Part shown: positions 52,472 through 57,999 of the stretch, piece after piece
Layout: each line of letters begins with the position of its first letter
Position numbering within the stretch: position 1 is the stretch's first letter
Assembly: GCF_020217425.1 (NCBI RefSeq)
Contig: NZ_CP084090.1
Span: 1,302,001 to 1,366,000, forward strand
Length of the DNA stretch: 64,000 nucleotides
From: Halomicrobium urmianum
Lineage (GTDB): Archaea; Halobacteriota; Halobacteria; Halobacteriales; Haloarculaceae
Direction: 5' to 3'
Program-made: the position numbers and the translations under genes
The notes under the pieces: generated by a model
Database searches by the model: none
What the model saw: only the letters and a program-made list of their open reading frames with translations
Told to the model about the DNA's origin: nothing

Positions 52472-52479
52472 TTAATATA
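52472..52479 (+). promoter_or_regulatory. TATA box of the three-gene unknown operon
   Basis: TTAATATA is centred about 27 nt before the ATG at 52502. It lies in an AT-rich island (52470-52504) with GC-rich DNA on both sides. This supports 52502 as the start and a leaderless mRNA. Confidence 0.6.
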
Positions 52480-52501
52480 CATGTTAGCATTTAGTAAATA
52501 T

Positions 52502-54142
52502 ATGGAAAACAGACGACGGGTACCTGGTAGCGGGTCGGAGAGGGACGGCTGTGGGCGTCGCACGTTCCTCCGGACGGTCGGCGGCCTCGGTGCCGTCGGC
52601 GGGGCAGTGGCCGGCGGGGCGTCGACCGGGGCCGCGCATCACGTCGAAGACATCGACCTGGAACCCGAGGGGGCCACGCTGATTCCCGGCGAGACGACCG
52701 AGTTCACCGTCCACTGGGTGTCGGGCCACGGGTCGCAGGCGTACTTCGTGTTCGCCATTCAGATCGACGGCGAGTGGCGCGAGATCGACAGGGCCGAACA
52801 GAGCGCGCTCAGCACCGGGGAACACGTCCACCCCCAGAAGGAACTGACCGTCCCCGGAGACGTGCCAGAGGGCGAGTACACGCTGCGCGTGAGCGCGTCC
52901 GAGGCCTACCACCGCTCTCCCTATCCGGGCGAAAAGAGCTACCCCATCCTCGCCGCCGACGCCGGCGTCACCGTCGCTGACGCGGTCTCCGTCGAGCGCA
53001 AGCGCGGGCTGATCGACACGATCCGAGCAAACGCCGGCGGGATTCTCACGCAGGATGTCGCAAACCCGCTGGACGCACGGGCGGACGATCTGCTAGACGA
53101 CGTCGAGGTGGCGCTCTCTGGCGGGCCGACGGCCCCGCAGTACGAGGAAGCGCTCAGCCGGATGATCAACGCCGAGCTAGCGGCGGAGTCCGCCGTGTCG
53201 ATCGCTCGAGACCCAGCGAGGAAGTTGAGCGAGTCGATCACCGAACTCGTAACGCTGCTCGCCTTCGCCAAGCTAGCGAAGGGACTGGTACGAGTGGGGG
53301 GACGCGCCGGAGCAGTGGTGGCCAGCAAGTTCGACGACGTAATAGCCTACGTGAGCCGTGGAATCAGTCGGTTGTCCGGAAAGCCGATCCTTCCCGTCAA
53401 CGCTCGACGACGGTTCGACGAGATCGTCACCAATGCGAGCCGGCGGGTCGGGAACTTACTGGACGAGCATCAGAACGGATTCACCGACGCCGGGAAGAAG
53501 ATCGTCTCGGGGTCAGCCAAAATCAACGAGGCGCTGGACATCCTCACCGGACCGATTGTCGACGCTCTCTCGACGATCAAGGAATCCACGGAAGTGGCAC
53601 TTACCGTGTTGTATTACAAACAGTATCTCACGCAGTCACGGCAGACGAACGAGGACGGAGAAGTGACCCGGCCACGCGGAGTAGACGAGAGCATCAACCA
53701 GCGGACGGACGAACTCTCACAGGCCATCGCGTCGAACGATCTCGGAGAGGAGGGAGGATCCGACAGAGAGCGGGCACGTCGGAAGCGGGTTTCGGCATTC
53801 GAGGACAGACGGGACGCGTTCATGTCGAAGATGAGTATAGTCGACGAGATACAGGACACCGGATCTCTCGCGGTCATTGCCGCTGCCGGCTTCTCGATCA
53901 TGCTGTACATGGTGTCAGTCGTCGTCTCCGCGACCGGTATCGGCATCATCGGCGCGGCGACACTCGCGGGTATCGCGTCGAAGCTCTCGACCGTCGCATC
54001 GCTCATCTCCTTCTTTATAATCACAGTCACTGGGTTCGCGATAGCGGTCGGCTACGACTTCCTTCAGGAGAGGATGCGGGACTACGAGGAGACGGTGAAC
54101 TACATCGTCAACTACGAGCGCGTCGGGAGTGACCTGCCGTGA
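52502..54142 (+). CDS. Tat-exported protein with Ig-like domain and C-terminal membrane hairpin, unknown
   Basis: 546 aa, not recognised. It has a twin-arginine signal (CGRRTFLRTVGGLGAVGGAV, cleavage near residue 45 at STGAAHH). An immunoglobulin-like beta domain follows (about 50-155; GATLIPGETTEFTVHW, GDVPEGEYTLRVSASEAYHR), then a long helical region (about 165-430). Two or three hydrophobic helices near 455-525 (VIAAAGFSIMLYMVSVVVSA, LISFFIITVTGFAIAVGYDF) come before a short tail. This suggests an extracytoplasmic protein anchored or inserted through a C-terminal hairpin. Third codon positions carry more A/T than in the surrounding genes. The stop overlaps the next gene by 4 nt. Confidence 0.78.
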   Translation: MENRRRVPGSGSERDGCGRRTFLRTVGGLGAVGGAVAGGASTGAAHHVEDIDLEPEGATLIPGETTEFTVHWVSGHGSQAYFVFAIQIDGEWREIDRAEQSALSTGEHVHPQKELTVPGDVPEGEYTLRVSASEAYHRSPYPGEKSYPILAADAGVTVADAVSVERKRGLIDTIRANAGGILTQDVANPLDARADDLLDDVEVALSGGPTAPQYEEALSRMINAELAAESAVSIARDPARKLSESITELVTLLAFAKLAKGLVRVGGRAGAVVASKFDDVIAYVSRGISRLSGKPILPVNARRRFDEIVTNASRRVGNLLDEHQNGFTDAGKKIVSGSAKINEALDILTGPIVDALSTIKESTEVALTVLYYKQYLTQSRQTNEDGEVTRPRGVDESINQRTDELSQAIASNDLGEEGGSDRERARRKRVSAFEDRRDAFMSKMSIVDEIQDTGSLAVIAAAGFSIMLYMVSVVVSATGIGIIGAATLAGIASKLSTVASLISFFIITVTGFAIAVGYDFLQERMRDYEETVNYIVNYERVGSDLP

Positions 54143-55173
54143 GCGTGAGCGCGTTACAGGAACTGAAAGAACAGATCACTGCCGGTCAGCGGGCGGCAGC
54201 GCTGGCTGCGGTCGACGACTTGCTGGCATCGTTCGACTCAGATCGCCGAACCGCGGCCAGAGACGACGCCCTCGCAACAGTCGTCAGATACAACGCCGCG
54301 CCCGAATCCGAACCGGCAGCGGTAGCGGACAGGTACACGGAAACGGCCACCGAACTCGAACAGACGCGCATCGAATTGCACGAGGCGTTGCTCGGATATC
54401 TCGGCGAAGAAACGACTGCGAGTACCGTCGTCGACAAGATCGAGGAGACTATATCGTCCTACGAGACGTTACAGACCGAACGCGAGGCGCTGACGGAACA
54501 CGCGGACTCGGTCTCACTCGGCCCAGTGCTTCACATGTACGGAGTCGAAGACGCGCGCGTCCCGTACGGAGGTTCGACCGGCGTCGGAACGGAACTGGAG
54601 AACGTCGGCGACTCCAGCGTGACAGACGTCGATCTGCAGACGAGCGGCGACCAGATCGTTACCACATCGGTTTCGCCGGACACCGTCGAAACGGTCGCTC
54701 CCGAGTCGAAGGAAGCGATCGGGCTCTCGCTGACCGGTGCAGCGACCGGTCAGGGGCGGTTACGACTGTCCGCCGACGGGGCGGAGGCGCGAGAATCGAC
54801 TGAGATCGGCGTCGAGGTCCTCGACAAGATCGACTACCTCAGGCGGGTAGATTCGATCGCGAACCGAGTCCTCACCGACGCCGAGAAACGGATCGAAGAG
54901 CGCTCGCCCGATCGGGCCGACGAGTTCAAGAACCGCATCGAGACCGCTCGAACGTGGCTCGACCGAACGATAGAACGGGCAGAGAACGGCGAAATAGGCG
55001 AGGCACAGGTGGACAACCGGATCGAAACTGCCACCTACTGGCTCGTCGCCCTCCTCAAGGTCGCGTCGGATCGAGAGATGGACGCGATCAGCGACGCAGC
55101 CCTCGCCGAGTACACCGCGCTCATCAAAGAGGCACTAGATCTATTGGAAGAGAGCAAGGAAGCGAAGATGTAG
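54139..55173 (+). CDS. Helical/CARDB-like protein of the unknown operon
   Basis: 344 aa, no signal or membrane helix. Residues about 1-125 are amphipathic helices (LQELKEQITAGQRAAALAAV, ETATELEQTRIELHEALLGY). Residues about 130-225 form a beta domain of CARDB/Ig-like type (GTELENVGDSSVTDVDLQTS). Residues about 230-344 are helical again, with RTWLDRTIERAENGEIGEAQ. The GTG start overlaps the upstream stop. I do not recognise the family. Codon usage is AT-shifted as in the first gene. Possibly a cytoplasmic partner of the membrane proteins. Confidence 0.75.
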   Translation: MSVSALQELKEQITAGQRAAALAAVDDLLASFDSDRRTAARDDALATVVRYNAAPESEPAAVADRYTETATELEQTRIELHEALLGYLGEETTASTVVDKIEETISSYETLQTEREALTEHADSVSLGPVLHMYGVEDARVPYGGSTGVGTELENVGDSSVTDVDLQTSGDQIVTTSVSPDTVETVAPESKEAIGLSLTGAATGQGRLRLSADGAEARESTEIGVEVLDKIDYLRRVDSIANRVLTDAEKRIEERSPDRADEFKNRIETARTWLDRTIERAENGEIGEAQVDNRIETATYWLVALLKVASDREMDAISDAALAEYTALIKEALDLLEESKEAKM

Positions 55174-55175
55174 TC

Positions 55176-55751
55176 ATGCCGGCCCACCCGCCCGAAGTGG
55201 ACGTACCCGACGATGTCTTCTTCTGGCGGTTCAAGAACCAGACGCGTCTGGGCCACGCGCTGGTCGCGCTCGGCGGCGTCGCCGTCTGGATCGCCGTGTA
55301 CACGTACTGGTTAGATGCCACCTGGGGAACCCCCCAGTTGATGATCGTCGAGACGGGCGAAGCGGCCGCTGCACGACGTGACGCGATGCGGATGGCGACC
55401 ACGGCCTGCATGGCCTGGTTCAGTCTGACGTTCATGGTCGGCAAGGGCGGACCGTTCCTCAACACAGTGACCTATCCGATCGTCCTGATCGTCACTGGTC
55501 CCTGGGCGGCCGCTCTGGTCGTTTACGGAACGACGCCCGGGAGCATCTCCGGCGGGTCGCCGATATCCGCGAGATTCGTGGTAGACGGGTTCGCGATGTT
55601 CCTTCCAGGTGCTCTGCTGACGATAGCCCTCGTGGGCGGGTTCCTGCTCGTCATCTATTTCGTGACGGGGACAGGTCCGGCGTGGGAGGAGAAACACATG
55701 CCCGACGCCTGGCACGATCTCGAACTCGAAAATCCCGAGAAGTGGGAGTAG
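55176..55751 (+). CDS. Four-helix membrane protein of the unknown operon
   Basis: 191 aa, starting 2 nt after the preceding stop. Hydrophobic segments lie at about 27-47 (HALVALGGVAVWIAVYTYWL), 72-90, 92-116 (PIVLIVTGPWAAALVVYG) and 132-160 (FAMFLPGALLTIALVGGFLL). A TAT-less N-terminus begins MPAHPPEVDVPDDVFFWRFK. The C-terminal tail is acidic and Trp-rich. Unassigned family; no known enzyme motif. Confidence 0.78.
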   Translation: MPAHPPEVDVPDDVFFWRFKNQTRLGHALVALGGVAVWIAVYTYWLDATWGTPQLMIVETGEAAAARRDAMRMATTACMAWFSLTFMVGKGGPFLNTVTYPIVLIVTGPWAAALVVYGTTPGSISGGSPISARFVVDGFAMFLPGALLTIALVGGFLLVIYFVTGTGPAWEEKHMPDAWHDLELENPEKWE

Positions 55752-56484: not shown

Positions 56485-57999
56485 ATGACCGACGCGGACG
56501 GGGCGAACGTCCTCTTCGTCGTGCTGGACACGGTCAGGAAGGACCACCTGTCCGTCTACGGCTACGACGAGCCGACCACGCCCCACCTCGCCGAGTTCGC
56601 CGAGGAGGCCGCCGTCTACGACCAGGCCGTCGCGCCGGCCCCGTGGACGCTGCCCGTCCACGCCTCCCTGTTCACCGGGCTGTACCCCTCCGAGCACGGG
56701 GCCACGCAGGAGAACCCCTACCTGGAGGGGGCGACGACGCTGGCCGAGTCGCTGTCGGCGGCGGGCTACGACACCGCCTGCTACTCCTCGAACGCCTGGA
56801 TCACGCCCTACACGAACCTCACCGCCGGGTTCGACGACCAGGACAACTTCTTCCAGGTCATGCCCGGGGACTTGCTCTCGGGGCCGCTGGCCCGCGCCTG
56901 GAAGGCGATGAACGACAGCGACGCCCTCCGGGGGATCGCCGACCGTCTCGTCCAGCTGGGTAACAAGGTCCACGAGCACCTCGCCGAGGAGGGCGGCGGC
57001 GACACCAAGACGCCGCAGGTGATCGACCGGACGATGGACTTCGTCGACGACTCCGACCAGTTCTTCGCGTTCGTGAACCTGATGGACGCCCACCTCCCCT
57101 ACCACCCGCCGGAGGAGTACGCCGAGGAGTTCGCTCCGGGCGTCGACTCCACGGAGGTGTGCCAGAACTCCAAGGAGTACAACTGCGGCGCTCGCGACAT
57201 CGACGACGAGGAGTGGGAGGACATCGTCGGCCTCTACGACGCCGAGATCCGGCACATCGACGATCAACTGGACCGCCTGTTCTCGCATCTCAAGGAGACC
57301 GGACAGTGGGAGGACACCATGGTCGTGGTCTGCGCCGACCACGGCGAGCTCCACGGCGAGCACGACCTCTACGGCCACGAGTTCTGCATCTACGACCCGC
57401 TCGTCAACGTCCCGCTGATGGTCAAACACCCCGAGATGGACGAGGGCCGGGACGACGAGACCACCGTCGAGCTCGTGGACCTCTACCACACCGTGCTGGA
57501 CGCGACGGGCGCGACCGGGCGGGGCCGCGCGCTCGACGAGCGCCGGTCGCTGCTCTCCGCGGACTACCGCGACTTCGCCGAGCCCGCCGCCGAGGGAGCC
57601 GACGTCGGCCGCGGCGAGGTGGGCTTCGTCGAGTACCACCAGCCCGTCGTCGAACTGCGCCAGCTGGAGGGCAAGGCCAGCGCGGCCGGCATCGACCTCG
57701 ACACCGACTCCCGGTTCTACTCCCGGATGGGCGCCGCGCGCACCCCCGAGGGGAAGTACATACACAACACGCGCATCCCCGACGAGGCCTACCGGGTCGA
57801 CGAGGACCCCGACGAGCGCGATGACCTCGCGGGCTCGGACGACCCGCTGCTGGCCGACCTCCGGGACGCTCTCTTCGCCTTCGTCGACGAGGTCGACGCC
57901 GACTGGCCGGACGAGGCCGACGGCGCCGACGGCGAGGTGCTCGACGAGATGGACGAGACGGCCAAGGACCGCCTGCAGGACCTGGGCTACATCGACTGA
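56485..57999 (+). CDS. Alkaline phosphatase superfamily enzyme (sulfatase-like, Thr nucleophile)
   Basis: 504 aa. N-terminal ADGANVLFVVLDTVRKDHLS carries the metal-binding Asp. The nucleophile stretch is PAPWTLPVHASLFTGLYPSE, where true sulfatases have Cys/Ser-x-Pro-x-Arg; here it is Thr-Leu-Pro-Val-His, as in phosphoglycerol/phosphoethanolamine transferases. The second metal site is VVCADHGELHGEHDL. Thus a phosphotransferase or phosphodiesterase is more likely than a sulfatase. The gene is followed by a flippase-like membrane protein 4 nt later, suggesting cell-surface lipid or glycan work. Confidence 0.85.
   Translation: MTDADGANVLFVVLDTVRKDHLSVYGYDEPTTPHLAEFAEEAAVYDQAVAPAPWTLPVHASLFTGLYPSEHGATQENPYLEGATTLAESLSAAGYDTACYSSNAWITPYTNLTAGFDDQDNFFQVMPGDLLSGPLARAWKAMNDSDALRGIADRLVQLGNKVHEHLAEEGGGDTKTPQVIDRTMDFVDDSDQFFAFVNLMDAHLPYHPPEEYAEEFAPGVDSTEVCQNSKEYNCGARDIDDEEWEDIVGLYDAEIRHIDDQLDRLFSHLKETGQWEDTMVVVCADHGELHGEHDLYGHEFCIYDPLVNVPLMVKHPEMDEGRDDETTVELVDLYHTVLDATGATGRGRALDERRSLLSADYRDFAEPAAEGADVGRGEVGFVEYHQPVVELRQLEGKASAAGIDLDTDSRFYSRMGAARTPEGKYIHNTRIPDEAYRVDEDPDERDDLAGSDDPLLADLRDALFAFVDEVDADWPDEADGADGEVLDEMDETAKDRLQDLGYID

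Follow-up and report, generated by a model that had tools for sequence, protein, structure and literature searches.

Haloarchaea carry a conserved pair of genes, here termed P1 and P2, which as far as the searched literature shows was previously undescribed, surveys of archaeal toxins being a possible exception. The pair was found in a stretch of 64,000 nucleotides of the Halomicrobium urmianum genome (hereafter the window), where a third gene, P3, follows. The conserved unit is the P1-P2 pair and not the trio. With slightly better than even confidence, we propose from the sequences that P1 and P2 form a surface-display complex that is exported by Tat and anchored in the membrane, with P2 as a hitchhiker on P1. 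The proposal builds on computed features, namely linkage, correlated divergence, domain exchange, a Tat motif confined to P1, tails on some P2 proteins and one fusion; from these we infer a physical complex, hitchhiking, membrane topology and a binding role.

All features described here lie on the forward strand of the window. P1 (52502..54142, ATG start) encodes a putative Tat-exported protein of 546 aa, P2 (54139..55173, GTG start) a signal-less partner of 344 aa and P3 (55176..55751) a small polytopic membrane protein of 191 aa. P1 and P2 overlap by 4 nt (GTGA) and 2 nt separate P2 from P3, which confirms the position and tight spacing of the three genes in the original prediction. A candidate TATA-like element, TTAATATA (52473..52480), was spotted by eye 22-29 nt 5' of the P1 ATG; its spacing suggests that a leaderless haloarchaeal transcript is likely. 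GC content at third codon positions (GC3) is 0.80, 0.75 and 0.81 for P1, P2 and P3 versus a window mean of 0.93 (sd 0.04). These are the three lowest values among the 55 genes of the window, so that the raised A/T content claimed earlier for these positions holds. P1 and P2 were not found in six other genomes of the genus. In two genomes of the genus without the pair (G191, G338), the flanking enolase-family and sulfatase genes are kept, and an IclR-type regulator and a thioredoxin-reductase-like gene occupy the place between them. Low GC3, absence from the six genomes and the presence of other genes between the flanks make it likely that the operon was acquired by this genome, as had been suggested. 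The sulfatase-family gene of the window (56485-57999) matches 11 stretches of its own genome, a large expansion.

The order P1-P2-P3 recurs in two genomes of another family, intact in G050 and with P1 broken by an in-frame TGA in G029; the trio is thus not a chance arrangement. In G029 (L040:8344-8733, contig C4) the TGA at about 8734 ends the P1 homologue before its hairpin, and P2 and P3 are still open. Relatives of P1 and P2 in the same order were found in G050, G029, G008 (two loci) and G118. Profiles built from these loci (A1, A2) were run on 391 genomes of the class, of which 22 (5.6%) gave a long match to P2 (E below 1e-12). The P1 core of group A, a clade defined below, matched in eight genomes, and P2 adjoins it in all eight. 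Wider P2 profiles (A9), applied to three families, led to further loci, and a scan of genome contigs gave at least one locus. In about 35 haloarchaeal loci inspected, P1 is the immediate upstream gene of P2 on the same strand, mostly at a distance of -4 to +7 nt; the exceptions are the broken or truncated loci L040, L044 and L144. Genes in these loci were called by a codon-score caller, and their start sites are approximate. Among 177 genomes of the phylum, no full-length P2 was found outside the class Halobacteria; matches there covered only CARDB or part of the C-terminal half. The P2 calls at L048 and L049 were discarded as false positives, being CARDB genes next to an ABC exporter. In G435 (C118, L140:7854-16519) a P1-P2 pair with a LamG-type P1 is accompanied by a second pair with an N-less P1 and by scraps of a third; this cluster is a decaying tandem array. 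Both contig ends of G495 C1 (L152, L153) carry the same cassette with its flanks; the contig seems to be a circle that was not closed and is redundant at its termini, and a duplication is less likely.

P1 and P2 also diverged together. The distance matrices of the P1 core and of P2 over 35 pairs correlate with a Spearman/Mantel r of 0.76, a value reached in 0 of 2000 permutations (best permutation 0.28), part of the correlation being expected from shared descent alone. Both trees recover a group of 12 rows with SH-aLRT support of 97 and 99. This group A comprises the window, L041-L043, L045, L101-L103, L107, L112, L140 and L141; the window pairs with L041 in the core tree as well as in the P2 tree. 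The conserved linkage that had been sought for all three genes is therefore seen for the first two at about 35 loci and fails for the third, which lies beside P2 in four genomes.

Profile searches of Pfam and NCBIfam with P1, P2 and P3 gave no match at cut-off, PADLOC none at E<=1 and PHROGs nothing significant, in line with the claim that the proteins match no known family. When six P1 cores were compared with PADLOC, the sole match was weak (RT_UG24, 0.0028). Sequence searches of solved structures returned chance helical or histone matches only. No relatives were found in IMG/VR or, with a group-A P2 as query, in phage records; plasmid records gave matches only for the group B loci of Halobaculum. 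Hence no viral origin was found. A search of the literature on haloarchaeal hitchhiker Tat or CARDB-Tat systems found nothing relevant. The undescribed conserved system of the original prediction thus stands as the P1-P2 pair, in which neither the P1 core nor P2 matches a named family apart from the CARDB-type Ig domain of P2.

P1 starts with a twin-arginine signal region (52502..52639, residues 1-46, RRTFLR), identified by motif scan as GRRTFLR. An N-terminal domain (52643..52978) follows, which is Ig-like in the window and resembles NPCBM_assoc/NEW3 below threshold (20.3 bits, Pfam cut-off 24.4). The structural model places strands at residues 51-158, although it is poor (pLDDT 41, two-row alignment). 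The remainder is a conserved helical core (52991..54139; KRxxIxxIR ... EALxRMxxAE ... hydrophobic hairpin). Its C-terminal hydrophobic hairpin (53870..54049, residues 457-516) spans 60 residues with a mean hydropathy of 1.9. Motif, model and hydropathy together are in line with the predicted layout of Tat signal, Ig-like domain, helical body and C-terminal hairpin. Relatives keep a helical core of ~390-460 residues with the hydrophobic hairpin at its end. The domain in front of it differs: LamG in L041, L112, L104 and L108; VWA in L103, L106 and L141 (the last assigned by similarity to L103); four PKD domains in L110; FG-GAP in L043 and L146; PA14 in L102; a PQQ propeller in L109, L118 and L149-L151; a DUF285/BspA-like domain in L150a; a carboxypeptidase-regulatory domain in L143; and M23 in L147. 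The PA14-type P1 (L102:6084-8788, G378 C2) is broken into a pair of ORFs with an overlap of at least 4 nt. The N-terminal domains of L112 and L104 share 64% identity over 275 aa, yet their cores do not match each other; those of L041 and L108 share 49% over 278 aa. Along the core tree the domain label switches at least 16 times. Similarity of N-terminal domains without a core match and these label changes show domain exchange: the N-terminal domain of P1 is swapped between genomes.

Such exchange raises the possibility, to which we give a low probability, of a domain-shuffling surface recognition or antagonism system. Swappable N-terminal domains on a membrane-inserting core would leave through Tat with an Ig partner and serve self/non-self discrimination or cell-to-cell attack. 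It would mirror, in archaea, polymorphic toxins as well as VARTIG. Like VARTIG (PMC8416519), the loci combine a large exported protein with a following Ig/CARDB protein and membrane proteins, show modular variability and seem recently acquired. In VARTIG the variable part is the C-terminal Ig region, behind a conserved N-terminus; P1 shows the reverse, with a swapped N-terminal domain in front of a conserved helical C-terminal core. An arCOG07710-type protein with hypervariable C-terminal Ig region was not found, as judged by layout and not by homology to arCOG07710. Looking for hypervariable modules around CARDB genes of archaea, Makarova et al. found nothing closely resembling VARTIG outside Thermococcales (PMC8416519).

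An AlphaFold2 model of P2 (two-row alignment, mean pLDDT 73) consists of five helices (residues 3-122), a CARDB-type Ig domain (about 127-230) and four helices (230-341). In fold searches the Ig domain matched Ig domains of CARDB/NEW3 type and others from extracellular proteins; the closest structures were Fusexin1 (Z 11.9), a NEW3-type sialidase and the S-layer protein SbsC, with Z about 10-12; the search is informative for the Ig domain only, the helical parts being barely probed. The P2 of the window has no Pfam match, its Ig domain being visible in the model, and several of its relatives exceed the Pfam gathering score for CARDB. A Tat-like motif was detected by motif scan in 30 of 35 P1 proteins, in 29 of 329 control genes and in none of the 35 P2 proteins, in which neither this motif nor a hydrophobic N-terminus was seen. 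Model and motif scan hence agree with the description of P2 as helical with a CARDB/Ig-like middle and without signal.

Several features of P2 relatives point outside the cell. The C-terminus of P2 in L146 is a Dockerin_1 domain (2.5e-8). In L154 it has the form PGFG-hydrophobic-Arg, seen by eye, and the Pfam model PGF-CTERM gave no match on this tail. In L142, L143 and L152, P2 ends in a hydrophobic segment followed by basic residues. According to the positive-inside rule, basic residues after a hydrophobic segment lie on the inner side, which would place the body of these P2 proteins outside. In L141 (4365-8021, G443 C2), a single reading frame of 1218 aa, which has a Tat signal and a VWA domain, comprises both P1 and P2; this fusion was found in one genome and may be a sequencing error, though such an error needs a frame change plus the loss of a stop. 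Dockerin and sorting-type tails are confined to group B P2, and the only extracellular hallmark of the window P2 is its Ig fold. From the dockerin, the PGF-like and membrane tails and the fusion, we propose that P2 leaves the cell with P1 and is probably an exported partner, not a cytoplasmic one. Of the soluble partner in the original prediction, the partnership stands through the linkage to P1, and a soluble cytoplasmic location fits the tails and the fusion poorly.

P2 could instead be a cytoplasmic chaperone that shields the P1 hairpin until Tat export and stays outside the surface complex. Its lack of a signal and its constant co-encoding and co-divergence with P1 would suit this role, and it is common for Tat substrates to have chaperones of their own in the cytoplasm. 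The model here would be the redox-enzyme maturation proteins, which are chaperones of Tat substrates. We consider it unlikely, however, given the dockerin and the PGF-like and membrane tails on P2 relatives, the fusion inside a Tat-exported chain and the CARDB Ig domain, a domain typical of surface proteins.

In the proposed surface-display complex, P1 would fold in the cytoplasm, where P2 binds its helical core. The twin-arginine signal of P1 would then carry both proteins through the Tat translocase, the signal-less P2 as a hitchhiker. In group A, including the window, the hairpin of P1 would be the membrane anchor of the complex. In group B, with its weaker hairpin, the anchor may come from the P2 tail or from a third protein of archaeosortase type. 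The hydropathy values run in parallel: group A hairpins score 1.2-2.2 over 55 residues near the C-terminus and lack a P2 tail, and group B hairpins mostly score 0.4-1.15 and occur together with P2 tails, dockerin-like ends or an exported third protein. This complementarity is best explained by a complex whose one anchor comes from different subunits. The exchangeable N-terminal domain would be displayed to bind a surface, glycan, cell or ligand, with adhesion, recognition and antagonism as candidate roles. Tat substrates usually have one hydrophobic helix and not a hairpin, which counts against the display complex. The putative anchor segment of group A is of hairpin length near the C-terminus, in contrast to the single transmembrane helix of tail-anchored Tat substrates, and could instead be a pore-forming element.

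The closest precedents of the display complex are the periplasmic Ni-Fe hydrogenases and formate dehydrogenases, hitchhiking Tat heterodimers with an anchor on either subunit (PMC10924467). Likewise, the signal is on one subunit here (30/35 P1 and 0/35 P2 by motif scan, with export of the partner inferred), and the putative anchor is on P1 in group A and on P2 in some of group B. Unlike these heterodimers, P1 and P2 lack a cofactor or redox domain, exchangeable binding domains sit on the exported subunit P1, and the group A anchor is of hairpin length instead of one helix. Substrates of ArtA carry a tripartite PGF-hydrophobic-basic tail (PMC7157517). Such a tail is present on some group B third proteins and on the L154 P2; the window proteins, in contrast, lack it.

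P3 has 3-4 hydrophobic segments by hydropathy, consistent with the predicted small membrane protein of four helices. It scores 19.7 bits with DUF7322 of Pfam, below the gathering cut-off of 27. Homologues are present in 23 of 195 genomes, mostly stand-alone and often adjoining what we take, from the start of its sequence, to be carB. P3-like genes of several genera stand alone beside a carB-like gene at L046:8743-9258, L048:5361-5885, L049:5432-5956 and L055:8227-8751. Next to P2, P3 occurs only in the window, in G029, in G050 and in a decayed locus of G186. P3 is thus an accessory gene of the window's sub-lineage; in the display complex it would be a membrane-embedded accessory that perhaps docks or protects the hairpin. 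Elsewhere the third gene encodes an unrelated small membrane protein, an exported DUF11/NEW3 protein, in some cases with an archaeosortase-type (PGF-CTERM-type) tail, or nothing related. A membrane gene neighbouring P2 in L143 was rejected as P3-like, having no relation to P3.

The suggested secreted effector with immunity corresponds to a colicin-like killer. P1 would combine a swappable receptor-binding domain with pore-forming C-terminal helices, P2 would be a co-toxin or carrier, and P3 or unrelated small membrane proteins would confer immunity. Pore-forming colicins have a binding domain, a helical domain with a hydrophobic hairpin near the C-terminus and an immunity protein of 3-4 transmembrane (TM) segments. 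The layout of P1 and P3 matches theirs in the swappable recognition part, the helical C-terminal part with hairpin and the nearby small membrane protein. The cassettes are patchy and of foreign composition, and those of G435 lie in tandem and are decaying. In group A, a small multi-TM gene lies next to P2 in about 5 of 9 independent lineages versus 12.5% of control genes, a post hoc comparison that keeps the immunity idea alive and does not establish it. However, P3 is mostly stand-alone and untied to P1 and P2, the membrane genes beside P2 show no relation to each other and are missing at several loci, so that no dedicated immunity gene is linked to every effector gene as in colicins. None of the swapped domains is a toxin; they are of binding, propeller or adhesion type, and no toxin family was matched. 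The conserved partner P2 with its CARDB Ig domain also differs from colicins, and the weaker hairpin and surface anchors of group B suit retention rather than release. A colicin-like killer is thus improbable, and with P3 so rarely linked to P2, effector plus immunity does not hold as a general rule.

Least probable, and in our view very unlikely, is a transmembrane sensor whose swappable ectodomain responds to a ligand or to stress on the envelope and whose P3 or third genes relay inward; P3 is polytopic, the third protein of L117 combines PKD, a TM segment and a zinc ribbon, and in L103 the neighbour of P2 is a membrane gene of GIDE type, but no kinase, HAMP domain or regulator is conserved at the loci and the third genes are not conserved either. 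The zinc ribbon of the L117 protein would lie on the cytoplasmic side; the GIDE-domain protein (L103:3661-4563, Pfam 2.5e-7) is convergent with P2, and a membrane protein of 342 aa that looks similar to it but has no Pfam match comes after a P2 in L140.

P1 and P2 represent two linked families for which no named model exists and which exchange has spread among haloarchaea. Proteins so far annotated separately as PKD, CARDB or NEW3 proteins are thereby brought together in one system. If P2 is co-exported, the pair would constitute a Tat complex with a hitchhiker but no redox cofactors, and a means by which archaea display interchangeable binding domains. Little is known of cell-cell recognition and antagonism in archaea, and the P1-P2 system is testable in genetically tractable haloarchaea.
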